Shown here piece after piece: positions 40,101 through 63,228 of a stretch of DNA of 64,000 bases. The position numbers and the translations under genes were made by a program. The notes below the pieces were generated by a model that saw nothing but the letters and a program-made list of their open reading frames with translations, was not told the origin of the DNA and searched no databases. The stretch lies in contig NZ_CP155073.1 in the NCBI RefSeq assembly GCF_039621805.1, positions 620,001 through 684,000 on the forward strand, written 5' to 3'. How positions within the stretch are numbered: the first letter of the stretch is position 1; each line of letters starts with the position of its first letter. Origin of the DNA: Paraburkholderia sp. PREW-6R. GTDB lineage: Bacteria > Pseudomonadota > Gammaproteobacteria > Burkholderiales > Burkholderiaceae.

Positions 40101-40109
40101 CCTTCTATC

Positions 40110-40988: not shown

Positions 40989-40996
40989 GAACAGTG

Positions 40997-41560
40997 ATGA
41001 GTCTGAACGTAATCCTGACGGCCCTGCCGGATGTGCTGATTCTCGAGCCCAAGGTCTATGGCGACGCACGCGGGTTCTTCTACGAGAGCTTTAACGCGAA
41101 GGCCTTTGAGGCCGCCACCGGCCTTAAGCGCGACTTCGTGCAGGACAACCATTCGCGCTCGTCGCGCAACGTGCTGCGCGGCCTGCACTATCAGATCCGC
41201 CAGCCGCAGGGCAAGTTGGTGCGCGTGGTCGCAGGCGAAGTGTTCGACGTCGCCGTCGATCTGCGCCGCGATTCGCCGACGTTCGGCAAATGGATGGGCG
41301 TAACGTTGTCGGCGGAAAACCGGCGGCAATTGTGGGTGCCCGAGGGGTTTGCACACGGCTTTGTCGTAACGTCCGCCACTGCCGAGTTTTTGTACAAGAC
41401 AACCGACTACTGGTATCCGGAACACGAGCGGAGTCTGCTGTGGAACGACCCCGACATCGGTGTCGACTGGCCCATCGAAGGCGAGCCTTCGATGGCGGCG
41501 AAAGACGCGGCAGGCAAGCGCCTCGCCGAGGCGGATGTGTTCCCGGCCGGCGTTTTCTAA
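40997..41560 (+). CDS. rmlC: dTDP-4-dehydrorhamnose 3,5-epimerase
   Basis: 187 residues of cupin fold. FYESFNAKAF, QDNHSRSSRNVLRGLHYQ with the catalytic His, and PEGFAHGFVV define the family. It epimerises C3 and C5 of the RmlB product. ATG 40997 has TAGGAACAG upstream; the GTG at 40994 is one codon earlier. It ends the rml block; a 204-base gap follows. Confidence 0.97.
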   Translation: MSLNVILTALPDVLILEPKVYGDARGFFYESFNAKAFEAATGLKRDFVQDNHSRSSRNVLRGLHYQIRQPQGKLVRVVAGEVFDVAVDLRRDSPTFGKWMGVTLSAENRRQLWVPEGFAHGFVVTSATAEFLYKTTDYWYPEHERSLLWNDPDIGVDWPIEGEPSMAAKDAAGKRLAEADVFPAGVF

Positions 41561-41764
41561 AGCCTGAACGGCATCGCTGCACCCTGCACGTTAGCGCCGG
41601 CCGTTGCCTGCTTGGGACGAATCCGGTCAGAGGCAGGCGTGTAGAATACTTTGAAGTTTTTATGACGGTTTAACTTTCCGTCGATTGCGCGGTCGTGGAA
41701 GGATGGAGCAGTCCATGGTTCGCCTACCATTGGGCGCAGGATTGCATCGACCTAGGGGAAATTT

Positions 41765-43180: not shown

Positions 43181-43181
43181 C

Positions 43182-44009
43182 ATGGTCGAACTCGTATCGC
43201 TCGAACGCGGCGGGCAGGAAGACATCACTACCCACACGCGCAACGACGACCTTCTAGTCGGCATCAAGGCGTCGCGCATCTGGGGCACGCTCGGTTGGCA
43301 CGACATCAAGCAGCGCTACCGCCGCTCGGTGATCGGGCCGTTCTGGTTCACGTTGAGCACGGCGATCATGGTCGTGGTGCTAGGAGCGCTCTATTCCACG
43401 CTGTTGCATCAGAACATCAAGGACTATCTGCCGTATCTGGCGGTGGGCCTCGTAGTGTGGCAATACCTCGGCTCGATGGCCAACGAAGGCTGCATGGCGT
43501 TCATCGGCTCGGCGTATCTCATCAAGCAGATCCGGATTCCATTGACGGTTCACGTGTGCCGCATCGCCTGGCGGAATTTCGCGATTCTGCTGCACAGCCT
43601 GCCGGTCGTAATCGTGCTGATGATCACCTTCGGCAAATGGCCGAGCTGGGAATTCCTGCTGGTGCCGGTCGGCCTCGTCGTGCTGCTGCTGCATGGCATC
43701 TGGGTTGGCGTAGCGCTCGGTGTGCTATGCGCGCGTTTCCGCGACATTCCGCCGATCGTGACAAATCTCGTGCAGGTCGTGTTCTTCTTCACGCCGGTCA
43801 TGTGGTCGCCGGAAATCCTAAAGGATCGCGCGTGGGTTGCCGAATACAACCCGCTGTATCATTTGATCGAAACAATTCGCGCCCCGCTCACCGGCCGCCC
43901 GGTTCACTGGGAATCGTGGGCGTGGTCGATCGGTCTGCTCGTTGCTGGTTTTGCTTTTGCGCAGTATCTGATGAGCAGATACCGTGACCGTGTTCCCTAC
44001 TGGCTTTGA
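43182..44009 (+). CDS. wzm: Wzm-type ABC-2 polysaccharide exporter permease
   Basis: 275 residues with six membrane helices, the ABC-2 permease layout. RYRRSVIGPFWFTLSTAIMV is the usual cytoplasmic entry motif, and FFTPVMWSPEIL lies before the final helices. It carries undecaprenyl-linked glycan across the inner membrane with Wzt. ATG 43182 follows the manC stop by one base. Confidence 0.95.
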   Translation: MVELVSLERGGQEDITTHTRNDDLLVGIKASRIWGTLGWHDIKQRYRRSVIGPFWFTLSTAIMVVVLGALYSTLLHQNIKDYLPYLAVGLVVWQYLGSMANEGCMAFIGSAYLIKQIRIPLTVHVCRIAWRNFAILLHSLPVVIVLMITFGKWPSWEFLLVPVGLVVLLLHGIWVGVALGVLCARFRDIPPIVTNLVQVVFFFTPVMWSPEILKDRAWVAEYNPLYHLIETIRAPLTGRPVHWESWAWSIGLLVAGFAFAQYLMSRYRDRVPYWL

Positions 44010-47766: not shown

Positions 47767-48878
47767 AAGTATTGGTCGTCATAGGCACCCGCCCTGAAGT
47801 CATCAAACTCGCGCCGATCGTTGCCGCGTTGCGCGGCAAGCTCGACGTGCGCGTATGCAGCACTGGTCAGCATCGCGAGATGCTCGACCAGGCGCTGGAC
47901 TTCTTCGGCATCGCGCCCGACGTTCGGCTGGACTGCATGCGTACTGGGCAGTCGCTGAACGAATTGTCCGCGCGCCTGCTAACGGGCGTCGATCAGGTGC
48001 TGGTCGAAGAGAAACCCGACTGGGTGGTGGTGCAGGGCGACACGACCACGGCGTTCTGCGCCGGTTTCGCGGCGTTCCAGCGTGGTATTGCCGTGGGCCA
48101 TGTGGAAGCGGGTCTGCGCACCGGCAATCTCGCGAGTCCTTTCCCCGAAGAGGCCAACCGCGCACTACTGAGCCGCATTGCAACGCGTAACTTTGCGCCG
48201 ACCGCGCGCGCCCGCGACAATCTGCTGGCCGAAGGCATTCCCGCCGAAAGCATTCTCGTGACGGGCAACTCGATCGTTGATGCTATCGGCCTCGTGCGCG
48301 CGAGGTGGCAGGATACGCCGCCGCAACTGCCGCCCGCACTGTCCGCCGAGGCGCCGCAGATTCTCGTCACCTGTCACCGCCGTGAGAACTTTGGCGCGGT
48401 CATGCTCGACATCTGCCGCGCGCTGCGCAATCTTTGCGGGCGCTATAGCGCCTATCAATGGGTCTTTCCGGTGCACCTGAATCCGCAGGTGCGCAAGCCG
48501 GTCATGAATGAACTCGGCGGCGTTCCGAACCTGCATCTGATCGATCCGGTCGATTATCCGACCAGTCTCTATCTGATTAGCCGCAGCACGCTGATTCTGA
48601 GCGACTCCGGCGGCATCCAGGAAGAAGCGCCGACGTTCGGCGTGCCGGTCGTCGTGATGCGCAATCACACGGAACGCAGCGAAGGCGTGGACGCCGGATT
48701 CGCGACGCTGGCAGGCCAGCAATCCGACAACATTGAGGCCGCGGTGCGCAACTGGCTCGACGCGCCGGCACGCCGCGAAGCGCTCAGACACCAAGTGAAT
48801 CCCTATGGCGACGGGCGCGCGTCGGAACGTACAGTGCAAAGCCTGCTCGGCCAGACGGCGGAGGCTTTCGGTGGTTGA
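47763..48878 (+). CDS. wecB: UDP-N-acetylglucosamine 2-epimerase
   Basis: 371 residues, non-hydrolysing type. GTRPEVIKLAPIVAAL, GHVEAGLRTGN, TGNSIVDA, CHRREN and DSGGIQEEAPTFGVPVVV are the family motifs. It makes UDP-ManNAc. No wecC-type dehydrogenase is in view, so the glycan may contain ManNAc itself. ATG 47763 overlaps the deacetylase stop. Confidence 0.96.
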   Translation: MKVLVVIGTRPEVIKLAPIVAALRGKLDVRVCSTGQHREMLDQALDFFGIAPDVRLDCMRTGQSLNELSARLLTGVDQVLVEEKPDWVVVQGDTTTAFCAGFAAFQRGIAVGHVEAGLRTGNLASPFPEEANRALLSRIATRNFAPTARARDNLLAEGIPAESILVTGNSIVDAIGLVRARWQDTPPQLPPALSAEAPQILVTCHRRENFGAVMLDICRALRNLCGRYSAYQWVFPVHLNPQVRKPVMNELGGVPNLHLIDPVDYPTSLYLISRSTLILSDSGGIQEEAPTFGVPVVVMRNHTERSEGVDAGFATLAGQQSDNIEAAVRNWLDAPARREALRHQVNPYGDGRASERTVQSLLGQTAEAFGG

Positions 48879-50082
48879 CAGGCAAGCGCGTGTCTCGCCC
48901 GGCGACTGCATCATGTTTTCGACAGCGGACTGGGACGAACCCTACTGGACCAACAAGCAGCACACGGCTGCGGTGCTCGCACGCCTGGGCTGGCGTGTGC
49001 TGTACGTGGAAAGCCCGGGCATCCGCTCGCCGCGCATGGCCAGCAAGCGTGACTGGAAACGCCTGTGGCGCCGATTGTGGCGCGGCGTGCAGTCCGTGGT
49101 GCTCGGGGCGCCGCAGCGCGACCACAACATCTGGGTGCTGTCGCCGCTTGTGTTTCCAGCCAAGCATCACTGGCCGTTCATCGGCTCGTTCAACAAGCTG
49201 CTTCTGCGCGGGACGATTGACCGGATGGCAAAGCGACTCGGATTCGACCATCCGGTGGTGTGGACGTATCACCCGTTCATGCTGAACGCCGTGTCGCACG
49301 TGGAGCGCGGCCCGACGGTATATCACTGCGTGGACGATCTGCGCGCGATTCCCGGCGTGGACATTGAAGCCTTCAATCTGGCGGAAGAAGAGTTGCTCAG
49401 GTCGAGTCAGGCGGTGTTCACCACGGCCCACGCACTGAAGGAACGCTGCAAGCGCCTGAACCCGAACACGCATTTCTTCGCAAACGTGGTGGATGCCGAC
49501 CACTTCGAAGCCGCCATGCGCGAAGGCGGGTTGCCCGACGACCTCGAACGGATTCCAACGCCGCGGCTCGTGTACCACGGCGTGTTGTCCGACTTCAAGA
49601 TCGACCTGCCGCTGCTGCTCGAAGTGGCGCGCCGTCGCAAGGACTGGAGCTGGGTCTTCATCGGCGAGGAGCGCGAAGGGCAGCAAAGCCCGCTCGTCGC
49701 CGAACTCAAGCGGTTGCCCAACGTGCATTTCCTCGGTTATCGAAGCTATCAGTCGCTGCCCGAGTATTTGCGCGGCATGCAGGTTGGCCTGCTGCCGACG
49801 CTGTTGAATGAGTACACGCGCTCCATGTTCCCGATGAAGTTCTTTGAATATCTCGCGGCCGGTCTGCCGGTCGTCTCGACGCCGCTCGCGTTTACCGAGC
49901 AGTTGTTCGACGGGCTGGAACTGGGCGGTGACGTGGCCAGCTTCGAGGTGGCCATCGAACGGCAACTGGCGCGCGGTCGGCTGACGCAAGAGGAGGCGCG
50001 CCTGTACGTCGGAGAAAACACGTGGGACGCCCGTACCGCAAAGATGCTCGAATATGTTCAATCGCTGAGACCCGTGTTATGA
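48871..50082 (+). CDS. Glycosyltransferase, GT-B fold
   Basis: 403 residues from GTG 48871 with GGAG seven bases upstream; it overlaps wecB by 8 bases. The acceptor half has IMFSTADWDEPYWTNKQH and VVWTYHPFMLNAV. The donor half has LNEYTRSMFPMKFFEYLAAG, the glycosyltransferase pattern seen with UDP-HexNAc or teichuronic-type enzymes. The ATG at 48913 is an alternative start. Specificity is unknown. Its stop overlaps the next start. Confidence 0.88.
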   Translation: MVDRQARVSPGDCIMFSTADWDEPYWTNKQHTAAVLARLGWRVLYVESPGIRSPRMASKRDWKRLWRRLWRGVQSVVLGAPQRDHNIWVLSPLVFPAKHHWPFIGSFNKLLLRGTIDRMAKRLGFDHPVVWTYHPFMLNAVSHVERGPTVYHCVDDLRAIPGVDIEAFNLAEEELLRSSQAVFTTAHALKERCKRLNPNTHFFANVVDADHFEAAMREGGLPDDLERIPTPRLVYHGVLSDFKIDLPLLLEVARRRKDWSWVFIGEEREGQQSPLVAELKRLPNVHFLGYRSYQSLPEYLRGMQVGLLPTLLNEYTRSMFPMKFFEYLAAGLPVVSTPLAFTEQLFDGLELGGDVASFEVAIERQLARGRLTQEEARLYVGENTWDARTAKMLEYVQSLRPVL

Positions 50083-51056
50083 AAGTGTTGTTTTCAACCT
50101 ATCCCATGGCGTTTCACACGCCCGGCGGCGGCGAAGTGCAGTTGCTTGCTTACGAGAAGCACCTACCGGCGCATGGCGTTGACGTCAAGCTGTTCGACAT
50201 GTGGAAACCGGAGTTCCTGAAGTACGACGTGGTGCATTTTTTCTCATGTATCAGCGGCTCATACCACTTCTGTCACTTCGTCAAGCAACTCGGCTTGCCG
50301 CTCGTCATCTCTTCCAGCCTGTGGATCACCGAGGTAACACGTCATCTCTATCCGATCGATGAAGTCCGCGCGCAATTGAGTCTGGCCGACCGCGTCATCA
50401 CTAATTCGAATCTGGAGAGCGATACGCTCGCGAGCGCGCTCGCATTGCCACGCGAAAAGTTTGCGACGGTCTACAACGGCATCGACGAATACTTCCTCAA
50501 GGACGTTCCGCCCAGCCTGTTCCGCGAGCATTTCGATCTGCCGGGCCGCTTTGTGCTGAACGTCGGCAATATCGAGCCGCGCAAGAACCAGTTGACGCTG
50601 GTGCGCGCTATGAAAGGGCATCCCGACGTCAAGCTCGTGCTGGTCGGCCAGCAGCGCGACCCGGCGTACGCGGCGCAGGTGCTGCGCGAGGGCGGCGACC
50701 AAGTCAGGTATCTCGGCGCGCTGCCGCACAACGAACTGCTGCTGTCGGGCTACGCCGCGTGCGACTTGTTCTGTTTGCCGAGCACGCTGGAGACGCCCGG
50801 GCTCGCCGCACTGGAGGCGTCCGCGCAGGGCGCACCGCTGCTCGTCACGTCCGAGGGCTCGTGCTCGGAGTATTTCGGCGATCGCGCCGCTTACGTGTCG
50901 CCGGATTCTGCGGACTCGGTACGCGATGCCATCGGTGCCATGCTGCAGCACGGCACCGCGCGAGCGGCTGCTGCGGCATCCGCATTTCGTCGCGATGCAT
51001 TCACATGGGCTTCGACTACCGAAGCCTTGCGCCGTATTTATCAAGAACTTGTTTAA
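50079..51056 (+). CDS. GT4-family glycosyltransferase (paralogue of the 59428 gene product)
   Basis: 325 residues from ATG 50079 (ATGA overlap). FSTYPMAFHTPGGGEVQLL, NVGNIEPRKNQLTLVRAM and STLETPGLAALEA, with EX7E intact. The N-terminal TYPMAFHTPGGGE, the IEPRKNQL segment and the overall length match the later gene product at 59428, so the two arose by duplication. It probably adds one sugar of the O-chain. Confidence 0.9.
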   Translation: MKVLFSTYPMAFHTPGGGEVQLLAYEKHLPAHGVDVKLFDMWKPEFLKYDVVHFFSCISGSYHFCHFVKQLGLPLVISSSLWITEVTRHLYPIDEVRAQLSLADRVITNSNLESDTLASALALPREKFATVYNGIDEYFLKDVPPSLFREHFDLPGRFVLNVGNIEPRKNQLTLVRAMKGHPDVKLVLVGQQRDPAYAAQVLREGGDQVRYLGALPHNELLLSGYAACDLFCLPSTLETPGLAALEASAQGAPLLVTSEGSCSEYFGDRAAYVSPDSADSVRDAIGAMLQHGTARAAAAASAFRRDAFTWASTTEALRRIYQELV

Positions 51057-51117
51057 CCAGCAGCGTCCGGCATCGACCGGCATGGATCTGGAAGAATTAC
51101 CAGGAGGCGCAGAGGAC

Positions 51118-52374
51118 ATGAATTCCGGCTTGTTCGCGAACGATAGCGTGCAGAGTCGACCGCATGTGTTGATGGTCACGCACGTTTTGCCCTATCCGCC
51201 GGCAGCGGGCAACGAAATTCGCATCTACAAGATGCTGAAGTGGTTTCGCCGCAAGGGCTACGGCATCACGCTGGTGCTCAAGCCGCTCGGCGACACCGAA
51301 GTCACGAACGAATGCGTGCTCGGCCTGTGCGACGTGGTCGACAACCTGCATATTTTTGACAACCGCGTGATCCCGCCACGTGCCGACGTTGCGAGCGCGC
51401 GCGCGCCGCGTCCGGTCGACACGGATATGGACGATTGCATGCTCGCCCAGATTCAGGACGGCTTCTGTCCCGCGTGGTTCGTCGAGGAAGTGGCGGCGAT
51501 CATCGCGGCAGTGCAGCCGGAAGTCGTGATCGCGCAATACGTGTTCACCAGCCGCGTTCTCGCGTTGCCGGAATGCGGACCGGCGCTACGCGTGATTGAC
51601 GCGCACGATCTATTCTGCCGCAAGCAGGCCACGGTCGAGCAATACGGAATCAAGAACTACGGCCTGAGTCTCACCGACGACCAGGAACGTGGGTTGCTTA
51701 ATCGCTCCGATGTCGTGCTGGCGATTCAGCGCGTCGAGCAGCTGGAAATCGCCAAGCTCGTGCCCGAGCGCAAGGTGCTGCTGGCCAGCTTCGATCTGGA
51801 AGTCCACACCGCAGACCCTCAACGCATGGTGCCCGATCAAGTGCTGATTGTCGCGTCGGGCAATGAATTCAACGTGCGCGGCACGCAGGATTTTCTCGAC
51901 TACACGTGGCCGCTTATCCGCGAGGCCAATCCGAACGCGCGGCTGCGTGTGATCGGGCGCGTCTGTCGCGAGGTGACCTCGGACGATCCGACGGTATCGC
52001 TGCTTGGTTTCGTCGAAAGCCTCGATCTCGAATACCAACAGGCGGCCGTCGTGGTCAACCCGTGCCGTGTCGGCACCGGCCTTAAGATTAAGACGATCGA
52101 GGCCCTTGCGTGGGGCAAGGCGCATGTGGCGTGGCCCTCGGCGGCCGATGGCCTGCGTGAGCTCGGCGACGTCCCGGCGATCATCGCGACCAACGTGGTC
52201 GACTTCGCCGACGCGATCGTGGCCGTGCTGCGCGACGCGAAGAAACGAGAGACGTTGCAGCAGGGCGCCCATCGTTTCATAAGCGGACATTTTGGCGCGG
52301 AACATGTCTATTCCGGCTTGACCGACGCCATCGACGCCACCGTGGCCGGCAACATCGAAAAGGTGCAAAAGTGA
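51118..52374 (+). CDS. GT4-like glycosyltransferase
   Basis: 418 residues from ATG 51118 (GAGG close upstream); ATG 51082 is an alternative. HVLPYPPAAGNEIRIYKML opens the acceptor domain and RVGTGLKIKTIEALAWGKAH is the donor site seen in many O-antigen GT4 enzymes. The overlap with the next gene is 4 bases (GTGA). Specificity is unknown. Confidence 0.87.
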   Translation: MNSGLFANDSVQSRPHVLMVTHVLPYPPAAGNEIRIYKMLKWFRRKGYGITLVLKPLGDTEVTNECVLGLCDVVDNLHIFDNRVIPPRADVASARAPRPVDTDMDDCMLAQIQDGFCPAWFVEEVAAIIAAVQPEVVIAQYVFTSRVLALPECGPALRVIDAHDLFCRKQATVEQYGIKNYGLSLTDDQERGLLNRSDVVLAIQRVEQLEIAKLVPERKVLLASFDLEVHTADPQRMVPDQVLIVASGNEFNVRGTQDFLDYTWPLIREANPNARLRVIGRVCREVTSDDPTVSLLGFVESLDLEYQQAAVVVNPCRVGTGLKIKTIEALAWGKAHVAWPSAADGLRELGDVPAIIATNVVDFADAIVAVLRDAKKRETLQQGAHRFISGHFGAEHVYSGLTDAIDATVAGNIEKVQK

Positions 52375-54311
52375 GTGACAAGATTGCGATCATCGTGACG
52401 CCGGCAGACGGCGCTTATGTCTTGCCGCAACTGGCCTCGCTGAGCGGACACGCCACGAGCATTGTCGCGTTCGTGCACGCGGGCGCGGGTGCCAGCCTGC
52501 CGGAGTCGAGCCCTGCCTGGATGAAGGTCGTCGCTGTCGACACCGTCACGGACTACTATGCGGCGCTGAACCGCACGCTGCATCCGCTGATCGAAGCCGG
52601 AACGGCGGTGCTGTTCGTTTCACCGCACCACGTGTTCGACAACGCGGCGATTGGCACGCTACAGGGCGAGCTCGCCGCGGATTCGCTGTATGGCTTCGCA
52701 CTGCCGCGCACCAACGTAGGCGGCTCGGCGCCGGTGCCGCGTTTGCGCGGCGAAGCGGCGGTCGACGGCCCGCAGGCGTTCGACGCGTTTTTCGACGGGT
52801 TGCCCGCGCGCCTGGGCGGCGGCATTGTGCAGGGCTTGCCCGTGCTGGTGCGGGCGAGTGTGCTCGCCACGTTCGGCCGCCTGAGCGGAAAGAGGTTCGA
52901 CCTCGCCGATGCGCTCGCCACGCTGTTCATCCGCGCGAACCGGCGCGGCTTCAGCGCGGTGGTGTGCAACCGCGCGCTGTTCTTCGTGCCGGAAACCACT
53001 GCCTTCGGCGGGGCGGCCGAGCGGCCAGTGATCGAACGCGCGAAGGACTACTACCGCGCGCTCGACTGGCACGCCGAATTCCCCGAACAGCGTCTGGAAA
53101 AGCTGCTCTGGCATCGCTTGGCTGCAAAGCCGAAGCGCCAGGTGCTGTTCGACATCCGCAATCTCGCGCCGGGATACAACGGCACCGCGCAGCACATCCT
53201 CTCGCTGATGAAACCGCTGTGCGCGCTGGCCGGGCGATTCGGCATCGAGCCGCGCTTCTGGGTGTTGAAGGAGTCGGCAGAATTCCACCGGCTCGACTCG
53301 ATCGCGCCGGGCCAGTTCGTGACCGAGTTGACCAGCGACGATCTGTTCGACGCTAGCATCCGTCTGTCGCAGCCATGGAGCTTCAGCGAATTGCGCGACC
53401 AAGCGTTCCGCTCGATGATTAACATGTACCTGATAATGGATGCGATTGCGTGGGACTGCCATTACATCCGCATGCCTCATATCGACGGCGTATGGCGCAC
53501 GGCGGCCGCGCAAGCGGACGGCTTTGCGTATAACAGCGCGTTCACGCAGCGCGCGTTCCAGGAACGCTTTCCGGACGCGCGCAAGGTTCCCTCGGCGGTG
53601 TCGTACTGCTCTCTCGATCCGTCGGAATACTATGCAGCGGAAGTCGATCCCGCGAAGGCGCGGGAGGCGGCAGCGGCCAAGCCCTATCTGCTGGTGGTCG
53701 GCAATCAGTACTATCATAAGGGGCTGTACGAGGTCGTGCGTGTGCTGGCCGCGGGTTTCCCCGAGACTCAGATCAAGGTGCTAGGCGAGATCAGCGAAGA
53801 GTATCCGAACGTCGAACAAATTCCGTCCGGTTTGATCGCTCATGACGACATCGACCGTCTGTTCCGCGAATGTACGTGTCTCGTGTTTCCGTCGCATTAC
53901 GAAGGATTCGGCTTGCCAATCCTGAAGGCGCTGTCGTTCGGCAAGCCGGTAATCGCGCGCCACAGCAGCCTGCTCGATGAGATCCGCGACCGTGTCAGCC
54001 CCGTCGACGGGATCGTGCCGTTCACGCGCAACACGGAATTGCTGCGCGCAATCGGCGAGGTGCTCGCCCGCGAGTCGCACTGGCGCGCTCAGAAAACCCA
54101 AGCCGCAACGCCGCGCGACGTGCACGACTGGGAGCGCGCCGCGCACGACATCCTGACGCTGTTGGAACGCGGACTCGCCAGCGTGAATGTCGAACGCTGT
54201 GTCGAGCGGCTCGAATTTTTCTATCGCTTCAACCAGTTCGACACGGAACGCGAAGGCTGGAGCAACGCGGACCAAAACAAGATCATCTTCGAGGTGGAGC
54301 TGGAGGAATGA
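52371..54311 (+). CDS. Two-domain glycosyltransferase (degenerate GT2-like N domain, GT4-like C domain)
   Basis: 646 residues from GTG 52371. The first ~240 residues look like a GT-A/GT2 fold (IIVTPADGAYVLPQLASL, then RANRRGFSAVVCNRALFFV) but without a clear DxD, the equivalent stretch reading VSPHHVF. The C-terminal domain is GT4-like (YLLVVGNQYYHKGLYEVVRVL, FPSHYEGFGLPILKALSF). In the EX7E pair the second Glu is Lys. Both catalytic sites are therefore slightly unusual. The next gene overlaps by 4 bases. Confidence 0.82.
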   Translation: MSDKIAIIVTPADGAYVLPQLASLSGHATSIVAFVHAGAGASLPESSPAWMKVVAVDTVTDYYAALNRTLHPLIEAGTAVLFVSPHHVFDNAAIGTLQGELAADSLYGFALPRTNVGGSAPVPRLRGEAAVDGPQAFDAFFDGLPARLGGGIVQGLPVLVRASVLATFGRLSGKRFDLADALATLFIRANRRGFSAVVCNRALFFVPETTAFGGAAERPVIERAKDYYRALDWHAEFPEQRLEKLLWHRLAAKPKRQVLFDIRNLAPGYNGTAQHILSLMKPLCALAGRFGIEPRFWVLKESAEFHRLDSIAPGQFVTELTSDDLFDASIRLSQPWSFSELRDQAFRSMINMYLIMDAIAWDCHYIRMPHIDGVWRTAAAQADGFAYNSAFTQRAFQERFPDARKVPSAVSYCSLDPSEYYAAEVDPAKAREAAAAKPYLLVVGNQYYHKGLYEVVRVLAAGFPETQIKVLGEISEEYPNVEQIPSGLIAHDDIDRLFRECTCLVFPSHYEGFGLPILKALSFGKPVIARHSSLLDEIRDRVSPVDGIVPFTRNTELLRAIGEVLARESHWRAQKTQAATPRDVHDWERAAHDILTLLERGLASVNVERCVERLEFFYRFNQFDTEREGWSNADQNKIIFEVELEE

Positions 54312-57300
54312 AGTTACTGACTCTTTTCGTGCGTTATGGCGACTCGGATTATCAGGGTGCGTTCAAGCGCCTCTGTCAGCTCTATCAACGTATTGAAGGC
54401 CTCGACTACGACGCGGTTCTGATCGACACGGCGTTGCCGGTTGACATGCAGGTGAAGCTCGGACCGAAGATCCTGATGATCGGCGGCAACAACACGCGGC
54501 GTGAGTTCAGCGGTTGGAATACGGCGTTGGAGCGCTTTCCGGACCTGCTCGACGGCTACGACCTCGTGCATATCGTCACGTCTGCGTTTGAGAACGAATA
54601 CAACGGCTTCTACCCTTACATCGAACGTCGCATGCTCTTGTATGCAGCGCGTCATCCCGAAGTCGCGCTCGCGCACGTTGACGCCTATCCGGACGCCGTG
54701 CGCCTGTTCGGCCGCAGCTTCCAGACGTGGGGCTGTTCGAAGTTCATCCTCGCGGCGCCGGAACGCATTCGCCGGCTGGCCACGTTTGTCGGCGACTTCA
54801 GTATCGACGATTTCTTCGCAAAATCGGCGAGCATGCCGTTTCGTCCAAATGCGCCGCTCTCGCAGAACTATCAGCAGCATCTGCTGAACTGGCTGACTGG
54901 CGAAGGGTTGCCGCATGGCCAGTGGCATTCGGTGTTCGAACTGTCCAGCGCCAATCTGCAGCGTTTTCATGCGAAGGCGATGTCGATCATCGACGAGCAT
55001 AGTCTCTCGATGCGTCTGCGCGAAACCGGCGCCCGGATCGTCGATTACACTTGGCTGCATTCGCGCGGCATTGCCGCGAGCGCGTCGCAAATCCCGGACG
55101 AAGTCACGCAGGTCAAGCAGCGCAACCTGTTCCTCTTCAGCAATCCGATCATCGAGTCGCATCTGGACCTGATGGACCGGCCGGAGTCGAACAGTTTCCA
55201 ACAGTTGTTCCACGTCACCGGCGATGCACCGTTCTCGCGCACCGCCGTGGTCGAAGCACTGTGGACCGGCAACCGCGAGTTGCAGAAGTATCTCGATCCC
55301 GACCGTCCGCTGCATAGCGCGGCGATCCACCTGAATCAGGACATGGCGATCGACGGGGAGCAGCGCGAATGGCTGGCGCAGCCCGACGACGAAATCACAC
55401 AGGACAGTATCCTGCCGTTCACGCGCGGTATGCACGCCATTTGGCTGGCGCGCGACGATCTTCGCACATCGTTCGATGTCAACGAGCCGGACGGTCGCCG
55501 CGCGATGAACCGCTGGTGGATCCAGGAAGGCATGCACGACGCCCGTTATGCCGGCTTCGTGGACGCCGGCGCGTATTCCGAGATCGACGCCTTGACCACG
55601 CATGACATACCGCTGCCCATAACGCGCGGCCTGCACGCGGTCTGTGACGCACGTGAGGACATGCGCACGGCGATTGATCTGGCCGCGGCAGCAGGCCGCG
55701 AGGCCTTGCTCTCATGGTGGGTCCGAACGGGCATGCACGAGCCCGAGCTGCGCGGCTTCATGTCGGACGACATTTACGCACAGCCCTCGCCGACCGTCGA
55801 GCAGGATCAGCCGTTACCTGTCACGCGCGGTCTGCACGCCGTGCGCGACGCGCGTGACGACATGCACACGACCATGGATCTGTCGGGCGAAGCGGGGCGG
55901 CGCAGCCTGCTCAAATGGTGGTTGCAGACCGGCATGCAGCAGCCTGCGTTGAGCGGCTTCATGCCGGCCGGTATCTACGCGCAGCCATCGCCCTCGGTCG
56001 AACAGGATCAGGCGTTGCCGATCACGCGCGGCATGCAGGCGGTGTGCCTCTCGCGCGAGGACATGCGCGCGGCCATCGACCTGTCGACTGTGGAGGGCCG
56101 CCGCAAGGCAATAGCGTGGTGGGTGTTGACCGGCATGCATCAGCCCGAGTTGCAAGGCTTCATGCCCGTCGACGCGTATGCGCAGACGTCTCCGGCGGTC
56201 GAGCAGGATCATGCGCTGCCTATTACGTGCGGGCTTGTCGCGCTGCTCACGACCCGCGAAGACCTCGCGAAGCTGGATCTGGGCACGCGCGAAGGACGGC
56301 GGCAACTGATCTGCTGGTGGGTGAACGAGGGCCGTCTCGATACGCGGCTCGCGGGCTTCATGCAGAACGAGATCTACATGCAGCCGGACGCCACGCTGAC
56401 GCAGGACGCGAGCTTGCCGATTACGCGTGGCATGCACGCGATCTGGCTGTCGCGCGACGATCTGCGCGACGTCATGGACATCGCCACGCCCGAAGGCCGC
56501 CAGGCGCTCGCCGACTGGTGGATGCGCGAAGCGCTCTACCGGCCCGACTTCGACTGTTTCGTGCATGCGTCCGTCTATGGCGACCTCGCGGCAGGCGTCG
56601 AGCAGGACACCTTCCTGCCTATCACGCGCGGGATGCACGCACTGCGCAACTCGCGCTCGGACCTGTTGGAATTCGCCGACCTGCGCACGCCGCAAGGGCG
56701 TGCAAGTCTGGTCGGCTGGTGGCTCATGGAAGGCGCGCACGACTCGCTGCTGTCGAGGCTGATTCCCGAGCACATCTACACGGACATCGATCCCGCGCTG
56801 CCGCAGGACGCCGGTATTCCGATCAATCGCGCAATGTGCGCATTCTACGTCACACGGCCCGACGCGCTCGACAACGACCGCGAACTGGGCACGCCGGAAG
56901 CCCGCAAGGCGCTGGTCAAGTGGTGGGTGGAGCAACTGGCGTACGGCACGCTGAGGTTGCCGTTCCGCATGACTGAGACGATGCTGTCGCTCGACGAATC
57001 CGGCTGGATGGTCACGCCCGACGTTGTGCATCCGCTCGCGCTTGCGCTGTACCAGGCGCGTGAAGACCTGCGCAACGCTTTCGATATCGGCACGCCGGAC
57101 GGCCGTAAGGCGCTCAACGTCTGGTTGCACACTTACGGCCGCAACGAAATGAGCGTCAAGATCTATGGCTCGGTCGAAGCCGACGACTCGGGCGCCGAAG
57201 ATGCGTCCGTGAAAGGCGGCTGGCGCGAGGGCGGCGTCAATATCGTCGGGTTCCCGCGCGGCGAACTAGGCATCGGCGAAGACGTGCGGATGGCGTCGCT

Positions 57301-58336
57301 CGCCATGACCACGGTGGATTGCGATCAATGCGTACCGCGTATCTCGCTGCGCATTGGGGCGCGCCAGTCGGACTTGGCGCTGCGCAATTACGAAGTCAAC
57401 ATGCCGCAGTACAAGACCAACCTGATCTTCCTGCCGCACTACGAGACGATCCGGTTGCTAGGCGCGTCCGGCGATTCGATTCTTGGTGGCCGCTACAACA
57501 TCGGTTGTTGGCAGTGGGAACTGCCGCGATATCCGAAGGGGCTGGAGCTTGCGTTGGTCGTGGTCGACGAAATCTGGTCCAGTACCACATTTACCGCCGA
57601 GGCCATGCGCAGTGTCACTGACAAGCCGGTGCTCGTGATGCCGATGGCGGTACATCTGCCGGAGCTGACCCGCGCCTACGTGCGCCCGGAATTCGATCTG
57701 CCTGACAACAGGTTCGTGTTCCTGAACGTGCTAGACGGCAATTCGAGCGTGTACAGAAAGAACCCACTGGCGGTCGTGCAGGCGTTCCAAAAGGCCTTCC
57801 CGCGTGCAGTGGAAGGCGTCCATCTGCTGCTGAAGACGATGAACATGGGCACGCCGTCGGCGCAATGGGACAAAGTGCTGCTCCTGTGCGAGGGCGACCC
57901 CCGCATCTCGATCATTTCGGGCGCGTTGCCGCGTGAAAAGGTCATTGCGCTGCAATCGCTCGCCGACTGTTTCGTGTCGCTGCATCGCGCGGAAGGGTTC
58001 GGGCGCAATATTGCCGAAGCCATGCTGCTCGGCAAGCCGGTCATCGCGTCGAACTTTTCGGGCAATACGGACTTCACCAACGACACGACCGCCTTCATGG
58101 TGGACGGCGAGACAATTCCCGTGCTGCCGGAGCAGTACAGCTTCGGCGCAGGCCAATCTTGGTTCGACGCGGATGTGGACTCGGCCGCCGCGATGATGCA
58201 GCGCTGCTTTCAAGACAAGCCGGAGCGGGACGCGCGCGCGGCCGCCGGTCAGGCGTTCGTGCGCTCGCGCTATGCGCCGGAATCAGTGGGCCGCCGCTAT
58301 CTCGAGCGGCTGCAAACGCTGAAACTGGTGCGCTAG
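54308..58336 (+). CDS. Giant glycosyltransferase with nine tandem ~67-residue repeats
   Basis: 1342 residues. Residues 1-330 form an N-terminal domain without an assigned fold (LLTLFVRYGDSDYQGAFKRL and HIVTSAFENEYNGFYPYIE). From about residue 365 to 945 there are nine repeats of 66-68 residues, each with an ITRGMHAIWLSRDDL-like start and a WW pair followed by GMH. The C-terminal ~370 residues are GT4: GFPRGELGIGEDVRMA (around residue 981), FVFLNVLDGNSSVYRKNP, and EGFGRNIAE with EX7E. It is translationally coupled to its neighbours. The repeats may be a protein or glycan binding scaffold; function unknown. Confidence 0.88.
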   Translation: MKLLTLFVRYGDSDYQGAFKRLCQLYQRIEGLDYDAVLIDTALPVDMQVKLGPKILMIGGNNTRREFSGWNTALERFPDLLDGYDLVHIVTSAFENEYNGFYPYIERRMLLYAARHPEVALAHVDAYPDAVRLFGRSFQTWGCSKFILAAPERIRRLATFVGDFSIDDFFAKSASMPFRPNAPLSQNYQQHLLNWLTGEGLPHGQWHSVFELSSANLQRFHAKAMSIIDEHSLSMRLRETGARIVDYTWLHSRGIAASASQIPDEVTQVKQRNLFLFSNPIIESHLDLMDRPESNSFQQLFHVTGDAPFSRTAVVEALWTGNRELQKYLDPDRPLHSAAIHLNQDMAIDGEQREWLAQPDDEITQDSILPFTRGMHAIWLARDDLRTSFDVNEPDGRRAMNRWWIQEGMHDARYAGFVDAGAYSEIDALTTHDIPLPITRGLHAVCDAREDMRTAIDLAAAAGREALLSWWVRTGMHEPELRGFMSDDIYAQPSPTVEQDQPLPVTRGLHAVRDARDDMHTTMDLSGEAGRRSLLKWWLQTGMQQPALSGFMPAGIYAQPSPSVEQDQALPITRGMQAVCLSREDMRAAIDLSTVEGRRKAIAWWVLTGMHQPELQGFMPVDAYAQTSPAVEQDHALPITCGLVALLTTREDLAKLDLGTREGRRQLICWWVNEGRLDTRLAGFMQNEIYMQPDATLTQDASLPITRGMHAIWLSRDDLRDVMDIATPEGRQALADWWMREALYRPDFDCFVHASVYGDLAAGVEQDTFLPITRGMHALRNSRSDLLEFADLRTPQGRASLVGWWLMEGAHDSLLSRLIPEHIYTDIDPALPQDAGIPINRAMCAFYVTRPDALDNDRELGTPEARKALVKWWVEQLAYGTLRLPFRMTETMLSLDESGWMVTPDVVHPLALALYQAREDLRNAFDIGTPDGRKALNVWLHTYGRNEMSVKIYGSVEADDSGAEDASVKGGWREGGVNIVGFPRGELGIGEDVRMASLAMTTVDCDQCVPRISLRIGARQSDLALRNYEVNMPQYKTNLIFLPHYETIRLLGASGDSILGGRYNIGCWQWELPRYPKGLELALVVVDEIWSSTTFTAEAMRSVTDKPVLVMPMAVHLPELTRAYVRPEFDLPDNRFVFLNVLDGNSSVYRKNPLAVVQAFQKAFPRAVEGVHLLLKTMNMGTPSAQWDKVLLLCEGDPRISIISGALPREKVIALQSLADCFVSLHRAEGFGRNIAEAMLLGKPVIASNFSGNTDFTNDTTAFMVDGETIPVLPEQYSFGAGQSWFDADVDSAAAMMQRCFQDKPERDARAAAGQAFVRSRYAPESVGRRYLERLQTLKLVR
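55400..57150 (+). repeat. Tandem coding repeat, nine copies of about 201 bp
   Basis: The conserved Thr of each ITRG-like motif falls at codons starting 55421, 55622, 55823, 56024, 56225, 56423, 56624, 56825 and 57029, so the period is 201 bp (once 198, once 204). Copies 1-7 keep the core; copies 8 and 9 are degenerate (INRAMCAFY, HPLALALY). In frame throughout. Confidence 0.92.
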
Positions 58337-58345
58337 GGGAGCGTG

Positions 58346-59398
58346 ATGCGACTTTTTATTGCTGCACCCGACATCTGGCCGGGCGACGCCGTTGGCAACC
58401 ATTGCATGAGTTTCGTGCGCAGCGCGCAGCGACTTGGCTATGAAGCCCGCGCGTTCGCGCAGCGTTCTGCCGGCGACGTGTCGCCGATCGACGAATTATT
58501 GTCGGCGGACAAGCCGGGCGGTATCGCCGCTGAAGACACGCTGCTCGTCAGCTACTCGATCCACGATCCGCTGCTCGACCAGTTGCTCGCGCTGCCGGGG
58601 CGCAAGCTCTGCTACTTCCATGGCGTGACCTCGCCGGAACTGTTGCGCGAGTTTGAGCCGGTCACGGCCGACCTGTGCGAGCGTTCGTTCGAACAGTTTG
58701 CGCAGCTAAAAAAGTTCGACGTGCTGATCGCGAACTCGCACGTGACCGCGCAAACCCTGACGCCGTACATGTCGATCGACGACGTGCGGGTGCTGCCGCC
58801 CGTGTCCGCCGACATGGCCGTGTTTTCTCACGTGCCACGGAAGCATGAAAAATCGCCGGACGCGCCGTTCGAGATTCTGGTGGTGGGCCGGGTGGTGCCG
58901 CACAAGCGCATCGAGGATGCGATCGAGGTTCTTGCGCAGGTACGCGAGCGTGGGGTGAATGCACGTCTGTCGATTGTCGGCAGCGCGCCGAATCGCACGT
59001 ATTTGGCGTTTCTGGTCGAACATGCGCGCGCGCTCGGTGTCGACGCGCACGTCGAGTTCCGAGGCATGCTCGACGACGCGAGTCTGTTTCGCGCGTTCGA
59101 CAGTGCCGACGCGTTGCTGTCTGTCAGCCAGCACGAAGGTTTCTGCGTGCCGGTGCTCGAAGCCATGCATCTCGGCTTGCCGGCGCTCGTGCGCGCAGGC
59201 ACGGCCGCGAGCGAGGTCGGCACGGGAGCCGCACCTGAGTTCGCTACGCTCGACGCAGCGTCCGACGCCCTCTGCGATCTGCACGCAAATCCGTCGCGCG
59301 TCGCGAGTCTTGCCGAGGTTGGCCGGCGTCGTGCGGCCGAACTGCTCGCGCAGACTTGCGACGAAGTTTTTGGTGCCATTCTTATGGCGTCGCGATAA
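58346..59398 (+). CDS. GT4-family glycosyltransferase
   Basis: 350 residues from ATG 58346 behind AGGGGAGCGTG. RLFIAAPDIWPGDAVGNHCM opens the acceptor half. ILVVGRVVPHKRIEDAIEVL and SQHEGFCVPVLEAMHLGLP, with EX7E intact, make up the donor half. It follows the repeat protein by 9 bases. Confidence 0.9.
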   Translation: MRLFIAAPDIWPGDAVGNHCMSFVRSAQRLGYEARAFAQRSAGDVSPIDELLSADKPGGIAAEDTLLVSYSIHDPLLDQLLALPGRKLCYFHGVTSPELLREFEPVTADLCERSFEQFAQLKKFDVLIANSHVTAQTLTPYMSIDDVRVLPPVSADMAVFSHVPRKHEKSPDAPFEILVVGRVVPHKRIEDAIEVLAQVRERGVNARLSIVGSAPNRTYLAFLVEHARALGVDAHVEFRGMLDDASLFRAFDSADALLSVSQHEGFCVPVLEAMHLGLPALVRAGTAASEVGTGAAPEFATLDAASDALCDLHANPSRVASLAEVGRRRAAELLAQTCDEVFGAILMASR

Positions 59399-59427
59399 CA
59401 TCGCCTGCCCTTTTGTTGGATGCCACT

Positions 59428-60393
59428 GTGTCAGATCCGCGTGTTTTGATTACCACCTATCATCAGGCCTTCCTCCTCCGGGGAGGCGGTGAATATGAAA
59501 TCTTCTCGATTGCCGACAGCCTGAAGCTGCGCGGGATGATCGTCGACATCTATGGTCCATATTCCCGCTCTCTCGACGACTACGACGTGGTGCTGCATTT
59601 CTCGGTGCACGGCGGCGGCATTGAGCTGCTCAGGGAGATCAAAAGTTGTGGCAAGCCGGTCGCGCTATGGCCGAACCTGTGGGTGCGCGACGCCGCCGAG
59701 GTGCCCGCGCAACTCGTCAACGCCCACGTCGGTCTCGCCGATGCCGTGATCTTCAAGTCGGCGGCGGAGCAGGCGCACTTTAGCCAGCGTTTTGCGCTGC
59801 CCGCAAACAAGGCGCGCCGAGTGACGGCGGGCGCAGATCCGGCGTACCGGCGTCCCGCGCCGCAAGGGCTGTTCAAAAGCCTGTACGGTCTGGAGCGCTA
59901 CGCCATCTGGTTCGGCGTGATCGAGCCGAACAAGAACCAGTTGGCGGCCGTGCGCGCGCTGCGTGAGAAGGGCATTCCGCTCGTGCTGGTCGGCCGCAGC
60001 CGCGAGGAAAGGTATTTCAGGCAGTGCCGCGACGCGGGCGGTGACGGCGTGCTCTTCATCAAGGGTCTGCCGCAAAAGTCGGAGATCGTGCGCGCGGCTT
60101 TGCAGGAAGCGCTGTTCTATATTGAGGTGTCGCACGAGCCGCCCGGTTTGTCCGCGATCGAAGCGGGCCTGTCCGGTTGCCGTTTGCTGCTGAGCGAGTC
60201 GGAGTGGTCGCGCGAGCATTTTGGCGATCTCGCCGTGTACGCCGATCCGTCGGACGAAGCCGACATTGCCCGTGCCATTGACGACGTGCTCGCCACGCCT
60301 GCCGACACCACTACGCTCGTCGACGAGATGAAGCGCTTCTGCCTACCGCAGGCGGTCGATCCGCTCATTGATCTTCTGCGGGACATCGCGTAA
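59428..60393 (+). CDS. GT4-family glycosyltransferase (paralogue of the 50079 gene product)
   Basis: 321 residues from GTG 59428, chosen because the preceding in-frame residues do not look like an N terminus. LITTYHQAFLLRGGGEYEIF, GVIEPNKNQLAAVRALREK and SHEPPGLSAIEAGLSG, with EX7E intact, parallel the gene at 50079. Its stop codon shares a base with the next ATG. Confidence 0.87.
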   Translation: MSDPRVLITTYHQAFLLRGGGEYEIFSIADSLKLRGMIVDIYGPYSRSLDDYDVVLHFSVHGGGIELLREIKSCGKPVALWPNLWVRDAAEVPAQLVNAHVGLADAVIFKSAAEQAHFSQRFALPANKARRVTAGADPAYRRPAPQGLFKSLYGLERYAIWFGVIEPNKNQLAAVRALREKGIPLVLVGRSREERYFRQCRDAGGDGVLFIKGLPQKSEIVRAALQEALFYIEVSHEPPGLSAIEAGLSGCRLLLSESEWSREHFGDLAVYADPSDEADIARAIDDVLATPADTTTLVDEMKRFCLPQAVDPLIDLLRDIA

Positions 60394-61037
60394 TGATTGT
60401 CTACTTGTTCCGGCACGGACGGTCCCAAGCGAACGAAGCCGCGCTCGTGACCGGCACGCCCGCCGACGAACTGAGCGCTGAAGGCATCGCCCAGGCGCAT
60501 CGCACCGCCGAGTGGCTCGCGCAGGCCGGCATCGCTGCCGACCGGTACTACGTCAGCCAGTGGGGCCGCGCGCGGCAGACCGCCGCGATTCTGTATCCTG
60601 ACGCGCATTGGCAGGAAGACACGCGACTTGGCGAAACCCACGCGGGCGAAGTCGCCGACTGGACGCAGGCGAGATTCGCGGCCGCTTATCCGACGTTTCA
60701 TGCCGATCCGTCACAGCACTATCCGGGAGGCGAGTCGCATCTCGAACTGAACGCACGCGCGCTCGACTGGCTGCACGGGCAACTGTCGCAACCGTGCGAC
60801 GCGGTGGCGGTTGCCGCGCATTCCGGGCCGATCTCCTGCATCCTGCAAGACGTGATGGGGATTGGCATGGCGCGGTTTCCGGCGTTCCTGCCGGGTCACG
60901 CGAGTCTGACCGTGATCGAGATGCGCAAACCGTCCGGGGGCGGCGAGTGGAGCGGTCGGCTGCTGGGCTTTTCGATGGGGCCGGTGACGAACTTGGCTGC
61001 CGCCATGCTCGGCCCGCAAAGGCCGCGTGCATCATGA
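60393..61037 (+). CDS. Histidine phosphatase family protein
   Basis: 214 residues of the phosphoglycerate mutase-like fold. The catalytic RHG motif is LFRHGRSQANEA near the N terminus, and the second His is in VAVAAHSGPIS. The family dephosphorylates small molecules or sugar phosphates. It sits inside a glycosyltransferase operon with overlapping junctions on both sides (1 base upstream, 4 bases downstream), so it is probably part of the pathway rather than a passenger. The substrate is unknown. Confidence 0.9.
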   Translation: MIVYLFRHGRSQANEAALVTGTPADELSAEGIAQAHRTAEWLAQAGIAADRYYVSQWGRARQTAAILYPDAHWQEDTRLGETHAGEVADWTQARFAAAYPTFHADPSQHYPGGESHLELNARALDWLHGQLSQPCDAVAVAAHSGPISCILQDVMGIGMARFPAFLPGHASLTVIEMRKPSGGGEWSGRLLGFSMGPVTNLAAAMLGPQRPRAS

Positions 61038-62080
61038 TCAAGACGCTTGCATTGCAACGTGAATCGCATGTGGCTTTCGGCGTGCCATCGCTCTCGGTGG
61101 CCGCGCGCATCACGGAAGTGCTCGAATACATGGAGTCGCGCGGCCAAGTCAGCTTCACGGCGATCTCGGAGAGCGACGAAATAGCGGCGCCCGGTGTCGA
61201 CTGGGCCGACGTGCTGATCTTAAGCAAGCATAGTTCGCCGCAGGCGCTCGCGTTGGTAAAGCGCGCGCGGGCGCGCGGCGTGAAGGTGATCTATGACATC
61301 GACGACTGGATATTCTCATTTCCGAAGTACAGCGGCGGCCAAGTGCACCGCGACCGACACGGGCTGATCCACGAACTGATTTCGTTGTCTGACGTGGTCA
61401 CGGTGGCGAATACCACGCTGATGAATAAGGTGCGCCCCTTTGTGCCGGAACCGGTGCTGGTGCCCAACGGCATGTGGGTCGAAAAGTATCTAACACCTGA
61501 TCAACCTGCTGGCCTTGAAGCGTCGCCGCCGCGCATCGTGTTCACGAACGCCGACTTCCTCAAGATGCAGTCGGCCAAGGACATGCTGCTGACGGCGCTC
61601 CAGGTATTCTTCCTGCGCAACCCGGAGTATGTGCTTGACTTTTACGGCGATCCGTTTCCAGAAATGTTCTCGCTGCCGTTTCTGCACTTCACGAACCGCA
61701 TGCCTTACGCCGAGTACATGCGTGCGCTGGTGTCGGGCCGCTACCAGTTCGCGATCACGCCGCTTGGCAGCAGCGAGGACCAGGAGGCCGCCGAATTCAA
61801 CGCCTGTAAGAACCCGTTCAAGTATCTGAACTACGGCTCGGCGCAGGTGCCCGGCATTTATTCGCAAGCGCCAATTTATGAAAGCAGCGTCGCGCAGGGA
61901 CAAACCGGTCTGCTCGTCAGCAACGATTTCACCGCGTGGGTGGACGCGTTGGAAACGCTGGCCCGCGACGCCGCATTGCGCGCGACGATCCGTCGCAACG
62001 CGTTCGAGGATGTGGTCGACCGGCATCACGTCCGCATGAGCGCTGAAGCGCTCGCCCGTGTAATGACGGGGGGCGCATGA
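61034..62080 (+). CDS. Glycosyltransferase-like protein, GT-B fold
   Basis: 348 residues from ATG 61034 (ATGA overlap with the phosphatase). YDIDDWIFSFPKYSGGQVH is a conserved segment of a GT4-like subgroup that often lies in O-antigen clusters, and PEPVLVPNGMWVEKY marks the domain border. The donor site differs from the standard EX7E (ITPLGSSEDQEAAEFNACKN). Specificity is unknown. Confidence 0.83.
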   Translation: MIKTLALQRESHVAFGVPSLSVAARITEVLEYMESRGQVSFTAISESDEIAAPGVDWADVLILSKHSSPQALALVKRARARGVKVIYDIDDWIFSFPKYSGGQVHRDRHGLIHELISLSDVVTVANTTLMNKVRPFVPEPVLVPNGMWVEKYLTPDQPAGLEASPPRIVFTNADFLKMQSAKDMLLTALQVFFLRNPEYVLDFYGDPFPEMFSLPFLHFTNRMPYAEYMRALVSGRYQFAITPLGSSEDQEAAEFNACKNPFKYLNYGSAQVPGIYSQAPIYESSVAQGQTGLLVSNDFTAWVDALETLARDAALRATIRRNAFEDVVDRHHVRMSAEALARVMTGGA

Positions 62081-63228
62081 ACCGGCGTACCGTGCGCGCG
62101 CTGCACGTGTACCGCACGTATTTTCCCGATCCGCCCGGCGGCTTGCAGGAAGCCATCCGGCAGATTGCGCTCGCGTGTTCGTCGTACGGGGTGGAGTCGA
62201 CGATCTTCACGCTGTCGCCGCAACCGCAGCCAGCGGAAATCCGGCGGCAGGAAGGTGGGGTGATTCGCTGCAAGTCGTATGCGGCGCCTGCGTCGTGCGA
62301 TCTGGGCGGCCCGGAATCCATCGCGAAGTTTCGCGAATTGTCCGCACAGGCCGACGTCGTGCACTTTCATTTTCCCTGGCCGTTCGGCGACGTGCTGCAT
62401 CTGTTCGGTCATCGAAACAAGCCGACTGTTATGACCTATCACTCCGACATCGTGCGGCAGCGTGCGCTCGGCTATGTGTATGGTCCGTTGATGCGGCGCA
62501 CGTTGCGCTCCATGTCGGCGGTGGTCGCAACATCGCCCGCTTATGCGCGAACCAGCGAGGTACTGAGCGGCATAGTCCCGCCGCAGCGTCTGCATGTGGT
62601 CCCGCTCGGTATCGCGGATTACGCCGGTGCCGCAGCCGGGGCTTCAACGGATATTCTGACGCGTCTCTCGCTCGACCGCCGTCCGCTGTTTCTATCGCTG
62701 GGCGTGCTGCGCTACTACAAAGGGCTGCACACGCTGATCGAAGCCGTACCCGGCATCGACGCCGATTTCGTGATCGCGGGTTCCGGGCCCGAGATGGAGC
62801 GGCTGCGCGACCTGGCAGTCCGCCACAAGGCCGACAACGTGGTCTTCGCTGGGCAGGTCAGCGACGAAGAAAAGAACGCGTTGCTCGGCGCGTGCCGGGC
62901 GCTCGTGCTGCCGTCGCAGCTTCGCTCCGAGGCCTTCGGCATGGTGCTCGTAGAGGCCTCGATGTTCGGCAAGCCGTTGATCAGTTGCGAGATCAACTCC
63001 GGCACGAGCTACGTCAACGAGCATGGTCTCACCGGCTTTGTGGTGCCACCCGATGCGCCGCGCGAACTTGCATTCGCAATCCGCGAATTGTTGACGGACG
63101 AGCCGCGCGCGCAGAACATGGGGCGCGAGGCGCGGGCCCGCTACGAGCGGCTGTTCTCCGGTCCGGCGCTGGGCGAGGCGTATAGCAGGATTTATGAGCA
63201 GGTAGTGAGCGGCGAGGCGCGGAGCTAG
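62077..63228 (+). CDS. GT4-family glycosyltransferase
   Basis: 383 residues from ATG 62077, overlapping the previous stop by 4 bases. LHVYRTYFPDPPGGLQEAIR, FLSLGVLRYYKGLHTLIEAV and LRSEAFGMVLVEASMFGKP, with EX7E intact, indicate a mannosyl- or rhamnosyl-type GT4. The donor is inferred only from the sugars made nearby. Confidence 0.92.
   Translation: MNRRTVRALHVYRTYFPDPPGGLQEAIRQIALACSSYGVESTIFTLSPQPQPAEIRRQEGGVIRCKSYAAPASCDLGGPESIAKFRELSAQADVVHFHFPWPFGDVLHLFGHRNKPTVMTYHSDIVRQRALGYVYGPLMRRTLRSMSAVVATSPAYARTSEVLSGIVPPQRLHVVPLGIADYAGAAAGASTDILTRLSLDRRPLFLSLGVLRYYKGLHTLIEAVPGIDADFVIAGSGPEMERLRDLAVRHKADNVVFAGQVSDEEKNALLGACRALVLPSQLRSEAFGMVLVEASMFGKPLISCEINSGTSYVNEHGLTGFVVPPDAPRELAFAIRELLTDEPRAQNMGREARARYERLFSGPALGEAYSRIYEQVVSGEARS

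Follow-up and report, generated by a model that had tools for sequence, protein, structure and literature searches.

A glycosyltransferase (GT) gene in the 64,000-nucleotide stretch of Paraburkholderia sp. PREW-6R analysed here (the window; contig NZ_CP155073.1, positions 620,001–684,000) encodes nine tandem units of about 67 residues, flanked by a predicted GT-A domain on the N-terminal side and a GT4 domain on the C-terminal side. The gene lies in a locus with a Wzm/Wzt-type exporter that is collinear in relatives. The array may be a helical arm that holds the lipid-linked glycan, partner GTs or both at the GT4 site during elongation for the exporter – the explanation favoured here, with somewhat less than even confidence. 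The window comes from a contig of 3.45 Mb in a genome of 7.0 Mb, and a search of the whole genome with the array found no second such gene.

The 67-residue repeat array

A sequence-only reading of the window had proposed nine tandem repeats between an unassigned N-terminal domain and a GT4 domain, and the number and position of the units were borne out. The first unit starts at residue 369 and the last ends near residue 962; the period is 66–67 residues, the last two units being irregular. A hidden Markov model (HMM) made from the units recovers all nine, with scores of 82–97 bits for units 1–7 and lower ones, 48 and 41 bits, for units 8 and 9 respectively. When the array (residues 369–968) was slid along itself and scored with BLOSUM62, the total peaked at +748 at an offset of 67. 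A positive total at offsets of 30–119 was found in none of 500 shuffles, which rules out chance repeats, and in neither of the unshuffled flanks (residues 1–368 and 969–1342). The region did not prove to be a single known domain without internal repeats. The pair of tryptophans earlier ascribed to each unit is present in units 1–8; the divergent unit 9 has W-L.

Pairwise identity is 37–66% among units 1–4, 6 and 7, while units 8 and 9 are divergent (unit 5, one residue shorter, entered the comparison without a gap). At the DNA level, Tandem Repeats Finder reported only 55622–56086, which covers units 2 and 3 and part of unit 4 (period 201, 2.3 copies, 75% matches), so most of the array is old, and recent slippage is ruled out for the array as a whole. 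Nonsynonymous divergence (dN) was lower than synonymous divergence (dS) in all five unit pairs compared, with dS near saturation and no significance test applied: dN and dS were 0.20 and 1.09 for units 2 and 3, 0.24 and 1.45 for 2 and 4, 0.29 and 0.79 for 3 and 4, 0.63 and 1.62 for 6 and 7, and 0.50 and 0.96 for 1 and 6.

The units matched nothing above cut-off in Pfam, NCBIfam, PADLOC or the PDB sequences, and the unit profile had no match to the PDB sequences at E up to 10. They are not tetratricopeptide repeats (TPR) – no TPR family in Pfam matched at E up to 10, and the period is 67 residues as against 34 for TPR. Literature searches listed no paper on this repeat, though one may still exist in print. 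The repeat is unnamed and missing from the profile libraries searched here. A match to PF10410 (DnaB_bind; E 0.046, below cut-off) was put down to chance; that label is also precomputed for several relatives. PADLOC returned no match, ruling out a defence-system protein.

The C-terminal domain has both a GT4-type profile match and a GT-B fold. It includes an E-x7-E motif (EGFGRNIAE, from residue 1229), the usual catalytic motif of GT4. The N-terminal domain has no profile match; it is no longer unassigned, a fold search of its model having predicted a GT-A-like fold. It may be an active transferase. Six of its residues (D125, H207, D229, E230, H231 and W249) are invariant positions in an alignment of 22 sequences.

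The structure was predicted in two pieces, residues 1–636 and 637–1342. Units 1–4 were modelled as repeated helices at unit positions 5–13, 15–20, 26–38 and 52–56. The predicted local distance difference test score (pLDDT), taken by block, was mostly above 90 in units 1–4, mostly 82–96 in units 5–7, and lower in units 8–9. The longest modelled helix has 13 residues in units 1–4 and 18 in units 5–9. The units may stack into one continuous arm. The fold-search lists for both models were filled by enzyme domains, and the absence of an array match there carries no meaning.

Two antisense open reading frames (ORFs), 54314–55636 (−; 440 residues) and 55814–57130 (−; 438 residues), mirror the array gene. 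They are probably a by-product of base composition and repeats.

Copy number, spacing and architecture in relatives

A search with the array region found 28 proteins, the window's own among them, with 3 to 15 units each and 193 in all. This query biases the set to array carriers; a protein with GT-A and GT4 domains and no unit would be missed. The copy-number table has 29 rows, comprising 26 of the 28 proteins and three named loci. The number of units was 3 in four rows, 4 in four, 5 in one, 7 in six, 8 in eight, 9 in four, 11 in one and 15 in one, while the non-array parts total 729–765 residues throughout. The longest array found, of 15 units, is in P0003, a metagenome relative of 1766 residues. 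The expectation that copy number would differ between relatives thus held.

Array length clusters by descent. A tree of the non-array parts requires 10 copy-number changes (minimum 7), against a mean of 18.7 after shuffling, and none of 200 shuffles was as low. Two clades are stable: in one, all 7 rows have 8 units and six are named Burkholderia; in the other, all 3 rows have 7 units and two are named Cupriavidus. There is also evidence of change among close relatives. P0002 has 7 units to the window's 9, with both flanks 90% identical; P0020 has 5 units to the 3 of P0027, and holds three first units, each 97–99% identical to the one in P0027; in the Azoarcus protein P0019, units 3–5 are 97–100% identical. 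Three close pairs with unequal counts (drawn from the window, P0002, P0020, P0027, L034, P0009 and P0011) each differ by exactly two units – 9/7, 5/3 and 11/9 – which may be chance.

The end units are kept by position. In the 20 proteins that have at least five units, 17 first units, 18 penultimate units and 18 last units found their best match in the corresponding unit of another protein. Inner units (n = 105) had their best match in an inner unit of another protein in 85 cases, in the first unit of another protein in 4, and in their own protein in 16. Spacing is also tightly kept: 140 of 148 unit-to-unit steps in 30 proteins are 66 or 67 residues, with the step to the last unit, which ranges from 37 to 67, set aside.

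Every unit counted has W at position 35. At position 36, proteins of the window's architecture have W in all 178 non-last units but in only 1 of 30 last units. In a second architecture, in which units precede a GT4 domain and the N domain is absent, it is W in 137 of 137 units. In proteins with single or paired units it is never W (0 of 8 and 0 of 36 units), being F, Y or L instead, while W35, R29 and D16 are kept. The proteins behind these counts are related to one another; the set of 36 consists of close kin from one seed, L080, which is also P0035 and was counted twice. W36 goes with being in an array, and the counts fit a contact within it. Derivation of the last unit from the single-unit type was not supported (the mean score of single units was 1.47 against last units of arrays and 1.45 against first units).

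The second architecture was found in 19 proteins from 18 genomes, one of them of another genus, which were read as whole ORFs. They have 5–10 units followed by GT4, the array beginning within 22–37 residues of the N-terminus. The window's GT4 domain has a match in every one of the 19, its N domain in none. Their spacing is looser, most steps being 66–72 residues and the first about 106. Within the genus, 72 of 144 genomes matched the search, many through the GT4 domain alone; reading of the rows gave array matches in 29 of 144, including the window and P. caffeinitolerans. Genome searches with unit profiles, in which the best 15–20 candidates per genome were scored and the window's genome was included, were positive in at least 6 of 299, at least 7 of 398 and at least 9 of 398 genomes.

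The sequence-only reading had also expected single or paired units in some bacterial GTs. Such units were found in other bacterial proteins, of which several are GTs. A search of the phylum gave seven such proteins, three with a GT4 domain by Pfam. L079 has two units; L080 has one, between an N-terminal part without a profile match and a GT4 domain. A search seeded with L080 gave 36 proteins (P0035–P0069, GT4 proteins of Tahibacter type, among them) with one unit each, a carriage of 36 of 36 that follows by construction, the query having contained the unit. L082–L084 (426–462 residues) and L085 (761 residues) have one unit each and similar N-terminal parts, such as FTICSRNYLAYAL; in L082–L084 the unit is C-terminal. 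L082 and L085 had no match in NCBIfam, and L082 had none among the PDB sequences at E up to 0.1. These four are apparently an unnamed family.

The N domain also stands alone, in six proteins of 283–397 residues, from a search for its relatives that reached only proteins of about 200–637 residues. In two genomes it makes up ORFs of 279 residues that lie a few kilobases away from the array gene.

The polysaccharide locus

The array gene is embedded in a series of genes on the same strand (Table 1). Its ATG shares 4 bases with the stop codon of the upstream GT gene (52371–54311), and the next ORF starts at 58343. A sugar-nucleotide block spans 38141..43180 and a downstream block 58343..63228. Of the eight other GTs counted in the sequence-only reading, six are GTs by Pfam at cut-off; the remaining two (59356 and 61034) have matches below cut-off only. 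The locus also holds a deacetylase-like protein and a UDP-GlcNAc 2-epimerase family protein.

Table 1. Features of the locus and of the array protein (window coordinates).
Feature	Position	Strand	Basis or remark
rmlB-like	38141	+	general Pfam family and position
rmlD-like	39186	+	
rmlA-like	40110	+	general Pfam family and position
rmlC-like	40994	+	
manC-like	41765	+	
wzm-like ABC-2 permease, closest model galactan type	43134..44009	+	Pfam PF01061; NCBIfam NF050109, E 6.7e-81, 272 bits, cut-off 380
wzt-like ATPase, 256 residues	43984..44754	+	Pfam ABC_tran 60-192; NF050108 19-244, below cut-off
four GT4-type GT genes (48805, 50022, 50926, 52371)	48805..54311	+	upstream of array gene
array glycosyltransferase gene	54308..58336	+	ORF, ATG start, 1342 residues
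N-terminal domain, residues 1-368	54308..55411	+	predicted GT-A-like fold; matched model range ~1-277
unit 1, residues 369-435	55412..55612	+	
unit 2, residues 436-502	55613..55813	+	
unit 3, residues 503-569	55814..56014	+	
unit 4, residues 570-636	56015..56215	+	
unit 5, residues 637-702 (66 residues)	56216..56413	+	
unit 6, residues 703-769	56414..56614	+	
unit 7, residues 770-836	56615..56815	+	
unit 8, residues 837-907, divergent, penultimate	56816..57028	+	HMM match 837-899
unit 9, residues ~908-962, divergent, last, W-L for W-W	57029..57193	+	HMM match 910-958
C-terminal GT-B / GT4 domain, residues ~973-1342	57224..58333	+	
E-x7-E motif of GT4 domain, EGFGRNIAE, residues 1229-1237	57992..58018	+	
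GT4 gene	58343	+	downstream
weak GT candidate	59356	+	matches below cut-off
histidine phosphatase	60393	+	
weak GT candidate	61034	+	matches below cut-off
GT4 gene	62077	+	

Each of the 22 query segments taken between 38141 and 63228 has a collinear match in both P. caffeinitolerans and Cupriavidus gilardii; the segment at 61034, compared in frame, is 79% and 77% identical, respectively. The Wzt-like ATPase has no C-terminal carbohydrate-binding module, the ATPase profile spanning residues 19–244 of 256, and the Wzt of the two relatives is similarly short (about 258 residues in P. caffeinitolerans and about 269 in C. gilardii). No chain-terminating kinase, methyltransferase or Kdo transferase was matched by Pfam in the array protein, whose N domain is without a profile match; the other genes of the locus were scanned by Pfam, and some by NCBIfam.

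A PaaK/AMP-ligase-like protein is encoded inside the locus at 44822–46204, with NCBIfam matches below cut-off and no Pfam match at E 0.001. It is 80% identical in P. caffeinitolerans and 79% in C. gilardii, and perhaps activates an acyl or amino-acid decoration. Some genomes with the second architecture share parts of the locus (ligase, deacetylase, epimerase and GTs) near the array gene.

Role of the array and comparison with known systems

In the favoured explanation, nine units predicted to be helical, set between the predicted GT-A domain and the GT4 domain, would form a stiff arm. This arm would keep the lipid-linked glycan as it grows, or partner transferases, or both, beside the GT4 active site, the chain would elongate there for the Wzm/Wzt-type exporter, and copy number would set the reach of the arm or the number of binding positions. 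Docking or chain-holding is the most economical role for the array. An arm for elongation is favoured because the CpsD capsule polymerases need their TPR domain for normal elongation and the second architecture likewise places repeats ahead of the GT; by this analogy the arm would serve elongation as the TPR domain of CpsD does. Also in its favour are the helices of the models, the tight unit spacing, the distribution of W36, the stable array length in two clades, dN below dS in all five unit pairs and the collinear locus. Several observations weigh against it. The two models have a predicted template modelling score (pTM) of just 0.52 (residues 1–636) and 0.55 (residues 637–1342), and therefore do not fix the path of the array in space. 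For an arm needed at a given length, the family's range of 3 to 15 copies is wide. The W36 rule has exceptions, W being retained in 19 of 19 last units of the second architecture. Finally, four of the seven single- or two-unit proteins (L082–L085) have no Pfam match at all, and so give no support to a link between unit and GT.

The array could instead be a protein ruler, the helical-repeat counterpart of the WbdD/WbbB coiled coil, in which unit number fixes the distance between active sites and hence the modal chain length. This is unlikely, even though the array lies between a predicted and a sequence-supported GT domain, varies in copy number while the rest of the protein stays nearly constant, and comes with an exporter locus of the kind for which coiled-coil rulers are established (PMC11231755). 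Against this, no long helix appears in the modelled array (judged from helix lengths, without a coiled-coil predictor), the Wzt lacks the module here and is similarly short in both relatives, no terminator domain is recognised by Pfam in the array protein, and the array of the second architecture has no domain in front of it. Both features tested here speak against the ruler role suggested earlier in its established sense, a coiled coil in a chain terminator together with a Wzt that has the module. A different sort of ruler, in which each 67-residue unit would add a fixed step to the distance between two sugar-adding sites without coiled coil or terminal-cap recognition, is likewise unlikely; if true, unit number in the gene would set the length of a surface glycan.

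It is rather improbable that the units merely separate the end domains, with length loosely constrained. The position between two domains, the single unit of L080 in a similar setting and the wide copy-number range would all suit a passive spacer, yet W35 and unit spacing are tightly kept and dN is below dS between units. A pure spacer between linked domains is further weakened because all 19 second-architecture arrays have no N domain in front. Growth and shrinkage of the array by unequal recombination with no consequence has a slim chance of being the explanation. The in-frame changes among close relatives (P0020 and P0027, units 3–5 of P0019, and P0002 with two units fewer than the window) are what such a process would leave, whereas the clustering of copy number on the tree, the end units kept by position and, again, dN below dS between units argue against it.

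How glycan polymerases hold chains and reach length is a live question for ATP-binding cassette (ABC) exporters whose Wzt lacks the carbohydrate-binding module. The arm of varying length probably assists the enzyme in holding or lengthening a sugar chain of the cell surface. The natural series of 3 to 15 units, with near-constant flanks and a locus collinear in the relatives checked, makes an effect of arm length directly testable, and the 67-residue repeat would serve annotators as a marker for such enzymes.

The single-unit proteins (L080, P0035–P0069 and L082–L085) share a homologous unit with the array, including W35, R29 and D16, and differ in having one unit (two in L079) and F, Y or L at position 36. 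The coiled-coil rulers WbdD and WbbB (PMC11231755) are alike in being a variable-length spacer in a Wzm/Wzt-dependent enzyme; in contrast, the array has short modelled helices, no recognised terminator domain and a Wzt without the module. By the account in that paper, Wzt has the module in all the terminated examples described, while for the Klebsiella O2a exporter, which lacks it, extension is coupled to export, with chain lengths dependent on stoichiometry. ORF7 of Klebsiella O4 (GT137) has a TPR-like helical bundle in a GT of an ABC-dependent O-antigen, but is a terminator enzyme with a coiled coil after the bundle, and its account in the portion of PMC11231755 used here mentions no 67-residue array.

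The nearest likeness is to the CpsD capsule polymerases of Actinobacillus pleuropneumoniae (Cps3D and Cps7D; PMC11666461), in which a TPR domain is fused to two GT modules. Truncation of this domain severely hampers processive elongation, and its length differs by serotype (14 helices plus a small one, as against 20). CpsD differs from the window's protein in its TPR domain, the units here having a 67-residue period and matching no TPR model, and in having two GT-B modules in place of a predicted GT-A and a GT4 domain. The array lies between domains in the window's protein and is N-terminal only in the second architecture, which has the CpsD order of repeats and then GT. In both systems, a long helical repeat domain of varying length – predicted as such in the present case – is fused to the GT domains of a polysaccharide enzyme.

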